Assembly (NCBI GenBank): GCA_030655535.1
Contig: JAURVK010000026.1
Span: 1 to 51,284 of the forward strand
Source: Methylobacter sp.
GTDB lineage: Bacteria; Pseudomonadota; Gammaproteobacteria; Methylococcales; Methylomonadaceae
Direction: 5' to 3'
DNA length: 51,284 nt
The stretch's first letter is position 1. Every line of letters starts with the position of its first letter. The notes beneath the pieces were generated by a model that worked only from the letters and a program-made list of their open reading frames with translations, ran no database searches and was not told where the DNA came from. A program made the translations under genes and the position numbers. Below are positions 13,029 through 29,584 of the stretch, piece after piece.

Positions 13029-13403
13029 AATATTTTCCTTCAGAGTAATAAAAAAAATGGATTCCATAAAAACACATTAATGTGTTGCCAAATCCAGGGA
13101 GCATTCTTGACTAGCTAATTTTTGAAACTGCGCTAACTTAGCGGCCGTCGGTAATCAACAGACACTAACCAGACCCATGATCAAGTATGGATTGAACTAG
13201 CGTTTCCTAATAGAAACAAGCTGCGTCTGTTAAGGTCATCCCAGAAACATTATCCCCTGTCCCTTTAGTCTATCAGGCACACATCGCCAGCTATTCATTA
13301 AGTACTTTCTATGAGTCATTGCTTAGAAAGCATACCTTATTAATAAATCAATGTTGTTAAAAAATCTTAAATGTAGCTTAACTGCAACATTAACATCCAG
13401 TCC

Positions 13404-13417
13404 GTGCGGTACCGCAC
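13404..13417. promoter_or_regulatory. Perfect 14-bp palindrome gtgcggtaccgcac, possible operator
   Basis: Exact self-complementarity in a gene-free 1-kb region upstream of the OmpA gene. Confidence 0.3.
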
Positions 13418-13618
13418 ATAATTGCCTTACAAAGGAAAATATTTTCTAAATTTTAAGTTCAACGCACACCTTGATTGTAGCGCGTTCCAATCATAAAGCC
13501 AGTTACCTGGGATGTGGCAGATCTACGGTGTTCAATATTGCATGCCGCTTTGTTTAAGTAACCGTATCACGAGTTACGCGGTTGGTTCGTTGGAATACTG
13601 GAATTTTCAAGTCTCTGC

Positions 13619-23504: not shown

Positions 23505-24482
23505 CTAGAGCTTGGGAACTAGCGAACTAGCGAAAAATCGGCGGTATTTATATATTCTGGGCAGATAGACGAGGCTTAACATCAGCAATGCCAACAATGC
23601 CGGTTGCCGGCGAATATCGGTCTGCACAACTTTTTCAGTCGCCAGTTTCGGGTTTTTTAATGCCAGACTCAGGTTTTGCAAGTCGGTTAATCGGGCGTAA
23701 GCCAAACCGGATTCTGCGCCCAGTTTTTCTAAATAAGTTTCGTGCAAAGCGGTTAAATGCTCGTTTCCGGCGGCGGCTTCACTGCCGAACGGGGCGTTAC
23801 GCGCGTTGTAGCCTTTGATTTGCGACGGATCCAAATTCGACTGTCCGAACGAAGAACGGTGCGGTACCTCGTCCTGGGCATAAAATCCGGTTTGCTTGCC
23901 TTGACTGTCGAACTTGGGGATAGGCACAGCCTGCAAACCGCCGACGCCGATAATCATGCCTTTTGCTTGTCCCTTTACACTTGAAAAATCAGCCTGGTAA
24001 TTGGGATTAACAGGCGGCGCTTCCTGTCCGTCGGTAATAAAAATCACCGAACTTTCGCTTTTTTGCAGCATTTCAAGCGTGCTCAGCAAACCCTTGGCAA
24101 TATTGCTGTCTGCCGCCCAAGCCATGCGCCAGTCGATTTTACTGATGGCGGTATCTATTTCCGTGTAGGCGGAACAAACTTCCAGCGGTTCGAATAATAA
24201 GGTTGAGCGCCTTTCGGTGAATAGGCCCAGGCCGACTTTGGATTGACAGGGCAGGTTCCGCAACAATTCGCGCAGGGTTTGTTTGACAAACTGCAATCGG
24301 CTGACGGACTGGTTGTCTTGTTGGTAGTCGGTTGCATTCATGCTGCGGGTAATATCGATAACAAAGGTGTAGTTGTAGGTTGGGCTTTTTTGTTGCTTGC
24401 TGGGGTACATAAACAGCACCAGCATGGCTAGAAGCGCCAGCAGCAGGCACCCGATTCGATAATCTTTTAATGTATTGCTCAT
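23505..24482 (-). CDS. mxaL: VWA-domain protein MxaL (methanol dehydrogenase calcium insertion/maturation)
   Basis: VWA (YTFVIDITRSMNATDY...SVIFITDGQEAP), TM at both ends, position after mxaK. Confidence 0.88.
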   Translation of the reverse strand: MSNTLKDYRIGCLLLALLAMLVLFMYPSKQQKSPTYNYTFVIDITRSMNATDYQQDNQSVSRLQFVKQTLRELLRNLPCQSKVGLGLFTERRSTLLFEPLEVCSAYTEIDTAISKIDWRMAWAADSNIAKGLLSTLEMLQKSESSVIFITDGQEAPPVNPNYQADFSSVKGQAKGMIIGVGGLQAVPIPKFDSQGKQTGFYAQDEVPHRSSFGQSNLDPSQIKGYNARNAPFGSEAAAGNEHLTALHETYLEKLGAESGLAYARLTDLQNLSLALKNPKLATEKVVQTDIRRQPALLALLMLSLVYLPRIYKYRRFFASSLVPKL

Positions 24483-24512
24483 TGTTTTCTCGTTTACGAG
24501 GGGCTAGATATT

Positions 24513-24570
24513 GTGGGCGCGAATTTATTCGCGCTTTTAACACCTGTCGCGCGAATGAATTCGCGCCCAC
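24513..24570. repeat. Hairpin repeat, mxa family copy 1 (gtgggcgcgaatttattcgcgc ... gcgcgaatgaattcgcgcccac)
   Basis: 22-bp inverted arms; between mxaK and mxaL. Confidence 0.92.
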
Positions 24571-24587
24571 GGTATTTCCATGGAAAA

Positions 24588-25148
24588 TCAAGGCAAACCG
24601 CGCGGAAACCCCGGCACTGTCGTCCACAACTGCGATTTCTGGTTATTAGGTTCGTCGTCGGGCATGTCGACCCTGTCCATTTCCGGCAATAAACGCATGG
24701 CGACTTCAAGGTTGTATTTGGCATCCCAGTTGCCGCTGTCCAATGCCAACGCTTGCCGGTAGGCCTGTTTTGCCAATCCCGCCAAGGGCAAGGCTTCATT
24801 GATATTCATGGTTTTTGCCTGCTGCACGGCTTGCTCCAGGTACAGATTGCCGAGGTTATAGCGGGCTTTGGCCTGAAATTTCCGGTCGCCTTTATCCATA
24901 ATCAGGCTGAGGGTCGATAAAGCCTCATCGTAGCGGTGTTTTTGCTGGAAATAAAAAGCCCGCGCCAGTCTCAATTCCGGTTCGCCGCTGATCACTTTAT
25001 TAACGGCCACATCCTTTCCCGACGTTAATTGCCGGATTAAGTCGTTGTCGTGATGAATGCCGTACAACGCGCCGGCGCTGTAAACGAAAGCCGCTAAACT
25101 GGCCGCCAACGCGGCCCACAGCGTCATATGCCTGATTGTTCTTATCAT
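24588..25148 (-). CDS. mxaK: MxaK-like TPR protein
   Basis: TPR-like (LRLARAFYFQQKHRYDEALSTLSLIMDKGD...YNLGNLYLEQA); syntenic. ORF track start is 25202; the original start is probably 25148 (see finding). Confidence 0.85.
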   Translation of the reverse strand: MIRTIRHMTLWAALAASLAAFVYSAGALYGIHHDNDLIRQLTSGKDVAVNKVISGEPELRLARAFYFQQKHRYDEALSTLSLIMDKGDRKFQAKARYNLGNLYLEQAVQQAKTMNINEALPLAGLAKQAYRQALALDSGNWDAKYNLEVAMRLLPEMDRVDMPDDEPNNQKSQLWTTVPGFPRGLP

Positions 25149-25211
25149 CGTTTGACCATTAACGCGCGAATAAATTCGCGTCCACAGATGCCTTCTTATC
25201 ATCGTTCGACC
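25139..25211. repeat. 19-bp direct repeat (ttcttatcatcgtt[t/c]gacc) flanking hairpin-repeat copy 2
   Basis: Copies at 25139-25157 and 25193-25211 with one mismatch. Central 35 bp contains gcgcgaataaattcgcgtccaca. Confidence 0.92.
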
Positions 25212-26209
25212 TCACAGAATTTAACGCCCAGCAGAACCAGCAGCAAGAAGGCCGCTACGCTGTAGCAAGCGGCCGATAAATCCTGTTTGGGGATGCGTTC
25301 GACATAGTGCATGGGCAGGTTTTCCAGTTGGTTGATGTCGGCAATCGCCTGTTTTAGCGCGTCCGGGCTTTCCGCTTCATAAGCCTGATAGGGACTGCCC
25401 AGCCCCAGAAAAAATTGATGCAGATAAAGTTCGGGCATGGCCCCAGCGTTATCGTCCCGGCTGTCTTCAGGCTGGTCGAAAATACCGGGGCTATTGGCGG
25501 TGCGCAGAAAAATCCAGTACAGGCGGACTTGTTGCTGTTTAAACCAAAATCGCAATTTCTGCTCGCTGTCGTGATCAATCGCCGCCGCGCCGTCCGAAAC
25601 CAACAATACAATACGCGAGCCGGTGACGGGTTGTTGCTGGAAAAACGATAAGGCCATGCCCAAGCCTTTGCTGACATGGGTAAAGCCGAGCGCCGGTGTC
25701 GCGGTCGCGGCAATCGCCGCTTGCACTGCGTTTTTGTTTTCGGTCAGCGGCATTACGAATAAGGGCGAAGTGCTGTATTCCGCGACCCCGATTAAATCGT
25801 TTTGCCGTTGTTTGACAAAATCGGTCAATAACCGCCGCGCCGCTGTGGCCTTGGATTCATCGGAGCCGTTCGGTGCGCGTCCGGCAAATGTGTCATCCAT
25901 GCTGCTGCTGCGATCCAGCAATAACACGATATGCGCGCCGTGACCGATACGCTCCCTGCTTTGTTCGGTGCGATGCAGGCCCGCCATGCCCAGCACTAAT
26001 CCGGCGATTGCCGCCACCCCGCACAGCCGCAGACAGCAGACGATAAAAACCGACAGCGTGTCGCCGGGTATCAATGTCAGCCACGGAGCCGGGCTTGAAC
26101 GCATGCCGTTATTGAACAGCGGCAACAGGGCGAGTAACAGGCCGGTCAAAGCCCAAGGGGTATCAACCGCCAAGCTCATCATTGACTGCCCCGTTCGATT
26201 TTTCGGCAT
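25199..26209 (-). CDS. mxaC: VWA-domain membrane protein MxaC
   Basis: HIVLLLDRSSSMDDTFAGR, C-terminal TM, syntenic. Start may be 26182 or 26179. Confidence 0.88.
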   Translation of the reverse strand: MPKNRTGQSMMSLAVDTPWALTGLLLALLPLFNNGMRSSPAPWLTLIPGDTLSVFIVCCLRLCGVAAIAGLVLGMAGLHRTEQSRERIGHGAHIVLLLDRSSSMDDTFAGRAPNGSDESKATAARRLLTDFVKQRQNDLIGVAEYSTSPLFVMPLTENKNAVQAAIAATATPALGFTHVSKGLGMALSFFQQQPVTGSRIVLLVSDGAAAIDHDSEQKLRFWFKQQQVRLYWIFLRTANSPGIFDQPEDSRDDNAGAMPELYLHQFFLGLGSPYQAYEAESPDALKQAIADINQLENLPMHYVERIPKQDLSAACYSVAAFLLLVLLGVKFCEVER

Positions 26210-27887: not shown

Positions 27888-28029
27888 GGGTTGGTTTTTT
27901 AGTATTTAATGTTACGCTTCGTCCACGAAAAGCACGAAATAAAGCAATGGGTTGTTACGTTGGCTGCTGATTCCCAAGCTGGAGTTCTCATCTTTATACA
28001 CAAATGTCAGCGATACACTGTCATTATCC

Positions 28030-28250
28030 CTCGTTCCCACGCGCTGCGCCGCGAGTCACGACCAGCGTTTTGCGTATACGGGACGCAGCGCGTCACTGCC
28101 ATTAAGTTAGGCTGAAAAGAAAGTGATGGCTGAACAGTGTGGGCGCGAATTTATTCGCGCAATGACTGCTAAATGCGCGAATAAATTCGCGCCCATGTAA
28201 CGACTAGCCCTTAACTTAATGGCAGTGACGCAGCGCGTGGGAACGAGAGT
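28030..28250. repeat. Composite nested inverted repeats in the mxaR-mxaS gap
   Basis: Outer arms tcgttcccacgcgctgcg / cgcagcgcgtgggaacga; 20-bp perfect arms gcgtcactgccattaagtta (28090-28109 / 28212-28231); mxa-family hairpin inside (28138-28195). Confidence 0.9.
28138..28195. repeat. Hairpin repeat, mxa family copy 3
   Basis: tgtgggcgcgaatttattcgcgc ... gcgcgaataaattcgcgccca. Confidence 0.92.
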
Positions 28251-28323
28251 CATTGCCGAGCTATAGCGTAACCCAACATATTCGTAGTGTTGTCGGGTTA
28301 CGTTGCACTAACCCGACCTACAT

Positions 28324-29340
28324 TCAAGGCGCGGCCACCTGATTCAAAATCCCCTTGATCAATTCGGGTAACAGCTGTTCTTTTCTATAGGCAACCATCG
28401 GGTTTAAAAACAGTCGATGCGTCATGCAGACTGGAAAAATCGCTTGCAGATCTTCAGGCAATACATGATCCCGACGTTCCAGCCAGGCGCGGGTTTTGGC
28501 GGCGCGGATTAAATAACTCATACCGCGCGGACTGGCGCCCGCCATTAACAATTGAGGCATTTCGACATCGGTTAATTGAACGCCGTATTGTTGCGGCTGA
28601 TGCGTGGCTTTCCATAAACTCAGCGCGTAAGCATGGAGTTTAGGGCTGGTCTGTATGCGTTGTTGCAAGGTTTGCGCCAACTCATTAAGCCGATAGTAAA
28701 TGCCGCTATTCGTGACACCGGCGATAAGCTGGTCGGTATCATGGAAGCGCGGATTGAACATCAGTTCATCCAATACGGTATCAGCGCTAGGCATATCGAT
28801 GTTGATTTCCATCATAAAGCGGTCTTTGGCGGCGGCGGGCAGCTCGAAGGTTTCTTCCTTCTCGACGCGGTTGCGGTCGGCAAAAACCTGAATATGCGGA
28901 AAATGGTAGTCGCGGTTAAACGCGTTAATGCTGCGTTCGGCCATTGCCCTTAACAGCAAGGCATGGACTTGCGGACGGGCGCGATTGATTTCGTTGAAGA
29001 AGAAGGTGGCGAGCGTGTTGCCGTGTTTCAGCAAAGGCCCCGGATCGACACACGGACGGCCTTGGTCGTTTAAATAGGTGTAATAGATCAAGTCGGCGGG
29101 CATCAGGTCGATGGTGCCTTCAATCCGTTGGTAATCGCCGCCCAAGCCTTGTGCAACCGCTCTTAACAGCGTGGTTTTGCCGACGCCGACATTGCCTTCC
29201 AGCAATACATGGCCTCTGGCAAATACGGCCAGAATGATATTCCTGACAGCAGGCTGTAGACCGATAACGGTTTGGTTGATTTGTCGTTCAAACTGTAACG
29301 CTAGTTCGCGCCAGTCGGTAAGTTGAGTGTCTGTGTTCAT
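28324..29340 (-). CDS. mxaR: MoxR-type AAA ATPase MxaR
   Basis: LLEGNVGVGKTTLLRAVAQGLGGDYQRIEGTIDLMPADLIYYTYL, FFNEINRARPQVHALLLRAMAE. Confidence 0.93.
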   Translation of the reverse strand: MNTDTQLTDWRELALQFERQINQTVIGLQPAVRNIILAVFARGHVLLEGNVGVGKTTLLRAVAQGLGGDYQRIEGTIDLMPADLIYYTYLNDQGRPCVDPGPLLKHGNTLATFFFNEINRARPQVHALLLRAMAERSINAFNRDYHFPHIQVFADRNRVEKEETFELPAAAKDRFMMEINIDMPSADTVLDELMFNPRFHDTDQLIAGVTNSGIYYRLNELAQTLQQRIQTSPKLHAYALSLWKATHQPQQYGVQLTDVEMPQLLMAGASPRGMSYLIRAAKTRAWLERRDHVLPEDLQAIFPVCMTHRLFLNPMVAYRKEQLLPELIKGILNQVAAP

Positions 29341-29419
29341 TGGCTATATAAAAAACATGTGTGCCGGAGCTGTAGAGTTTTTCCAGCTGTGTTTGCACGG
29401 AAACCGTTACTGCCATTAA

Positions 29420-29480
29420 TTGTGGGCGCGAATTTATTCGCGCTTTTAAATCTACCGCGCGAATAATTTCGCGCCCACAA
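29420..29480. repeat. Hairpin repeat, mxa family copy 4
   Basis: ttgtgggcgcgaatttattcgcgc ... gcgcgaataatttcgcgcccacaa; between mxaI and mxaR. Confidence 0.92.
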
Positions 29481-29584
29481 CATCTATTTCCGGCCTAATC
29501 ACCAAAAAGAAAAAAGGGGCATAAGATACAAACAGACTCACAGGGGGAAGGAGGGTGGAATGTATTTATGCCCAAAACAAACCG

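Follow-up and report, generated by a model that had tools for sequence, protein, structure and literature searches.

How did a palindromic repeat come to lie between two copies of a 19-bp sequence, exactly where mxaC ends and mxaK begins, and is the duplicated sequence a footprint left by movement of that repeat? The locus is found on the minus strand of a 51,284-nt stretch of Methylobacter sp. DNA (contig JAURVK010000026.1), the whole of which is referred to here as the window. The junction, GGTCrAACGATGATAAGAA, is present twice; the copies differ at 1 of 19 positions, start 54 bp apart and are separated by 35 bp, as a sequence-only reading had described, and its placing of the site exactly at an ATGA coupling overlap also holds. 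When up to three mismatches are allowed, these are the only two matches in the window, compared with 0.04 expected from shuffles. The mxaC gene terminates as ...GAGGTCGAACGATGA, and the same ATGA begins a frame. The features of the locus are listed in Table 1. The GGCATC next to the hairpin is probably the remnant of an extended upstream copy, derived from CAGGCAT..CTGTGGGC of mxaK minus 6 bp. A search for RNA families at the junction gave none, and junction RNA does not fold more strongly than shuffled sequences (z 0.04).

Table 1. Features of the mxaC-mxaK junction and of the REP pairs in the window
Feature	Position	Strand	Remark
mxaC	25199..26209	-	reading frame
Shine-Dalgarno-like GAGGT preceding the coupled ATG	25209..25213	-	sequence
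Upstream junction copy GGTCGAACGATGATAAGAA	25193..25211	-	contains the mxaC TGA and the coupled ATG (25202-25200)
GGCATC remnant (then T)	25187..25192	-	putatively derived from mxaK
Single REP, GTGG head and CGCGAATTTATTCGCG hairpin	25165..25186	-	lone copy, no inverted pair
Downstream junction copy GGTCAAACGATGATAAGAA	25139..25157	-	contains the ancestral mxaK ATG (25148-25146)
mxaK as in relatives	24588..25148	-	open frame extends upstream as far as 25202 (18 added residues)
Inverted REP pair (BIME/REPIN), mxaK-mxaL gap	24512..24571	.	hairpin-core matches
Inverted REP pair within a larger composite palindromic repeat	28138..28197	.	hairpin-core matches
Inverted REP pair upstream of an AAA ATPase gene	29421..29479	.	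hairpin-core matches

Empty and filled alleles in the genus

The junction is readable in 18 genomes of the genus, 13 of which have a single-copy, empty site (mostly GGTCAAACGATGATAAGAACAATCAGGCAT), as do 2 outgroup genomes. Because one-copy sites occur in both sets, the clear reading of this comparison, which the sequence-only reading had proposed, is an insertion and not the loss of a universal double junction. The filled allele measures 54 bp in the studied genome, 53 bp in G021, G015, and G019, and 66 bp in G014, whose hairpin has diverged. The 66-bp allele also occurs in a contig labelled Crenothrix polyspora TrH, which is close to G014 across the mxa cluster. This TrH MAG (L115), with its Crenothrix label and Methylobacter-like mxa cluster, is probably mislabelled or a chimera. 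A duplicated junction without the hairpin was detected in no genome compared.

The insertion is old and patchily inherited, and it is the 54-bp in-frame length that is peculiar to the studied genome. The idea of a recent scar could not be maintained, since six genomes or MAGs share the insertion and are scattered on both flank and rpoB trees. In AU tests, a clade of all six filled alleles was rejected for mxaC (p = 0.0025) and mxaK (p = 0.0017), and in the rpoB-region tree filled G015 is sister to empty G007 (full support) while filled G019 groups with empty G011. The three 53-bp carriers have derived letters in common in the downstream copy (CCATGATTAG) and are themselves non-monophyletic (mxaC, p = 9e-7; mxaK, p = 6e-4). 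Exchange of the allele between species would be the simplest reading of this pattern, because precise deletion from the 53-bp allele should leave ATGATTAG, whereas the empty sites read ATGATAAG except in G001. A sliding comparison of the flanks gave a recombined mosaic with no clear transfer tract. The G014/TrH hairpin is so diverged that a common origin with the other inserts is suggested mainly by the site of insertion and by AACAGGCATC as a common sequence.

Membership of the hairpin in a REP family

REPs have been defined by a GT(A/G)G head, an imperfect palindrome, a number of copies usually above 100, and the occurrence of inverted REPs beside a cognate RAYT gene (PMC2817692). The hairpin between the two junction copies (TGTGGACGCGAATTTATTCGCG) belongs to a RAYT-associated REP family, because head, palindrome, abundance, and RAYT flanking all fit this definition. 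Head and palindrome at the junction read GTGGACGCGAATTTATTCGCG, the palindrome having a lower GC content than the published examples (PMC2817692). Its core, rightly said to recur elsewhere in the cluster, has six further copies in the window (up to three mismatches; chance expectation none), which form three inverted pairs. Most other copies carry the variant GTGGGCGCG, in comparison with GTGGACGCG at the junction. Genome-wide, 122 copies were counted in the 2.76-Mb draft genome (up to two mismatches), and a reversed control pattern gave 0. In addition, inverted REPs (L106 12959-13023 and 13519-13587) flank an ORF (13170-13505) that matches NCBIfam NF047646, the REP-associated tyrosine transposase (RAYT), with 121.6 bits against a cut-off of 80. 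This RAYT frame is broken in the studied genome by a stop near the N-terminus; the homolog in G015, which is 88% identical, has an intact open frame of 153 codons.

Inverted pairs were found at 58 of the 75 distinct REP sites read in the studied genome and its relatives. The junction has a single REP and is thus not a REPIN, in which two inverted REPs make up one long hairpin. The family is unevenly distributed, with 111 copies (up to one mismatch) in the studied genome, 137 in G021, 152 in G015, 6 in G019, and 0 in several others. A literature search on REPs in Methylobacter found nothing. Taken as a whole, the polymorphic REP insertion at this coupling overlap is real.

Other repeats were noted in the same region. 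The gaps of the mxa cluster (window 24482-24590, 27890-28320, and 29340-29500; orthologous gaps L107-L124) are occupied by palindromic repeat families that differ from one Methylobacter genome to the next in almost all cases, which indicates that the region accumulates palindromic elements generally, and the mxaK-mxaL gap is almost empty in G016 and G060. At L106:7885-8041, an inverted REP pair is found inside a composite palindromic repeat of ~157 bp, which G021 has in more than 20 copies. Another pair (L106:16244-16298), apparently inside a reading frame or at its end, is present in G015 and G021 and absent from G019, G018, and G009. MxaC itself has an in-frame extra segment near residue 112 (DDGKDAGG...RAMHGAIAE; L101-L104), with 16 residues in G019 and G010 and 32 residues in G007 and G009; these were considered as REP insertions and rejected, as they have no match to the REP.

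Translation of MxaK from the filled alleles

In the empty allele, mxaK starts inside the ATGA overlap, behind GAGGT. In the studied genome the coupled ATG is in frame with MxaK and adds 18 residues (MIRRHLWTRIYSRVNGQT), and in G014/TrH it is also in frame and adds 22. In G021, G015, and G019, on the other hand, it opens an 18-codon mini-ORF whose TGA lies within the ATGA of the mxaK start. The earlier statement that the addition is in frame and provides two mxaK starts is thus correct for the studied genome, including its 18-residue extension, and fails for the three filled relatives with 53 bp, in which the upstream start belongs to a separate mini-ORF. All six filled alleles show either an in-frame fusion or a stop exactly on the mxaK ATGA, and all appear to preserve a coupled path into MxaK.

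Before the downstream start, the 53- and 54-bp alleles have the weaker AATGGT in place of GAGGT, and this loss would favour the upstream start or reinitiation. Ribosomes ending mxaC may re-start at the first ATG and then either read through in frame into MxaK (54 bp; 66 bp, two genomes) or translate the mini-ORF, which stops at the mxaK ATGA (53 bp, three genomes). It was reported that reinitiation across 38 nt is reduced by 80-100% in E. coli, and that the 15 nt at the end of the upstream gene are enough for coupling (PMC10666635). Judged by these data, insertion of a bare REP should uncouple mxaK, whereas coupling should survive if the overlap is duplicated along with it; this may be why a duplication accompanies precisely the REP that lies in such an overlap.

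The conservation of a coupled path in every filled allele, reached in two different ways, together with the persistence of the allele across species, could also mean that selection maintains the insert as a translational device, with the mini-ORF or N-terminal extension tuning MxaK output, and that it is not a tolerated accident. This appears very improbable, since 13 of the 18 scored genus genomes do without the insert, the encoded peptides are unconserved between alleles, and the duplication alone accounts for the preserved coupling.

Origin of the duplicated overlap and comparison with known systems

The sequence-only reading took the duplication for a transposition footprint of a mobile hairpin family and proposed a search for other copies with flanking duplications. 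In a survey that compared 60 bp on either side of the 75 distinct REP sites, the only REP-adjacent direct repeats of such length were those of four alleles of the mxaC-mxaK junction; none of the ~71 other sites has one, which contradicts the proposal, and general target duplication by the REP family was rejected. The remaining high scores came from a unit of the RAYT flank that is arranged in tandem in G015 and from self-complementary pieces of composite palindromes 27-45 bp from the REP. The RAYT-flanking REP pair of G015 occurs in tandem copies that include 21 bp of adjacent sequence (L151:2023-2260). At other REP pairs, few clean empty sites could be used for pairwise comparison, since the palindromes found there differ from genome to genome. 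It is known that IS200/IS605 elements, the relatives of RAYTs, insert without larger target duplications (PMC2817692). Since the other REP sites surveyed have no such duplication and enzymes of this type do not produce larger ones, the duplication is particular to the mxaC-mxaK site.

That the hairpin transposes as a rule with a target site duplication of ~19 bp, leaving a recent scar, would agree with the empty site, with the direct duplication adjoining the REP on both sides, and with the intact RAYT homolog of G015, by which the machinery exists. This is decidedly improbable in view of the ~71 other sites, the lack of larger duplications in the IS200/IS605 family (14-19 bp are seen at the junction), and the occurrence of the allele in divergent species. 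Moreover, the duplicated length varies, being 14 bp in G021, G015, and G019 and 19 bp in the studied genome, and a constant-length duplication at independent insertions of the family was not observed in the 75-site survey. In a related but still improbable version, the duplication would be the real footprint of replicative REP integration by hairpin-primed template switching, and would usually escape notice, since retention of both target copies is forced only on insertions in overlaps under tight constraint.

The inserts themselves carry further traces. Those of G021 and G014/TrH start with AACAGGCATC, whose CAGGCAT is in common with the mxaK sequence just downstream (chance sharing, shuffle p 0.007; background 1.7%). 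The REP head GTGGGC, found in 0.7% of 45-bp stretches, is also present in mxaK codons 11-13 (CTGTGGGCC). When the GGCATC flank was sought on other REP copies, it was found only at the junction, and two other hits lacked the flank; a donor REP copy bearing GGCATC was rejected because the flank is confined to the junction.

The favoured explanation, to which a probability of about 0.55 was assigned, is that a REP was captured in a one-off event together with local duplication, and was retained as the duplication restored the overlap. Briefly, a single event in the Methylobacter lineage would have brought a REP from the RAYT-associated family of the genus into the mxaC-mxaK overlap, and the error responsible would have duplicated this overlap at the same time. 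Most probably it would have been a template switch at the GTGGGC that mxaK has in common with the REP head, with a subsequent jump back upstream. The original duplication may have been 30-44 bp long, with GTGGGC as the point at which it met the REP, and its upstream copy, free of coding constraint, would then have lost 7 bp in the relatives or 6 bp in the studied genome. The allele presumably survived, as a matter of survivor bias, because the duplication provided mxaC with its own end and mxaK with its own start, and later transfer between species or loss would have produced the patchy distribution.

Alternatively, slippage might first have duplicated the overlap in tandem, and a REP might later have entered the spacer via the usual RAYT route without target duplication. 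A separate cause for the duplication is indeed called for by the behaviour of IS200/IS605 kin (PMC2817692) and of the other REP sites, and the intergenic gaps of the cluster are hotspots for palindromic repeats. However, no genome has the duplication without the hairpin, the unit mobilized by RAYTs is probably an inverted pair (PMC3116915) whereas the junction REP is single, and the extended CAGGCAT remnant lies directly against the REP, which suggests one event. Two separate steps are therefore considered unlikely, though of appreciable probability. Some points weigh against the one-off capture as well: the microhomology was recognized post hoc and is modest, the G014/TrH hairpin is strongly diverged, and the alleles compared include no intermediate that could place the duplication before the REP, after it, or together with it.

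With its empty, 53-, 54-, and 66-bp alleles, a single genus offers a matched test set for the origin of single REPs and their entry into new sites. The entry of a REP into a tightly coupled operon can be tested with this allele series, as can the idea that duplication of the overlap makes the insertion tolerable, and the predicted N-terminal extension or mini-ORF of MxaK, in a methanol dehydrogenase cluster, is testable.

The family shares with the REP/REPIN and RAYT systems of Pseudomonas and Stenotrophomonas (NF047646) the GTGG head, a short palindrome, more than 100 copies, a predominance of inverted pairs, and pairs flanking a RAYT gene. The junction copy differs in being a lone REP within a gene overlap, surrounded by a duplication of 14-19 bp, whereas RAYT-type movement is not known to make such a duplication. 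With the REPs situated within reading frames (GTAG and CGTC families) and the Rickettsia palindromic elements (PMC3733652), it has in common that residues translated from a palindromic repeat are predicted to be added to a conserved protein; here, however, the REP lies at the protein start and is accompanied by a second copy of the stop/start overlap, and only half of the carriers have it in frame. Finally, the empty allele, with the mxaC stop and mxaK start overlapping as ATGA, corresponds to ATGA-overlap translational coupling by termination-reinitiation (PMC10666635), whereas a filled allele has either two overlaps or one overlap plus an in-frame fusion.
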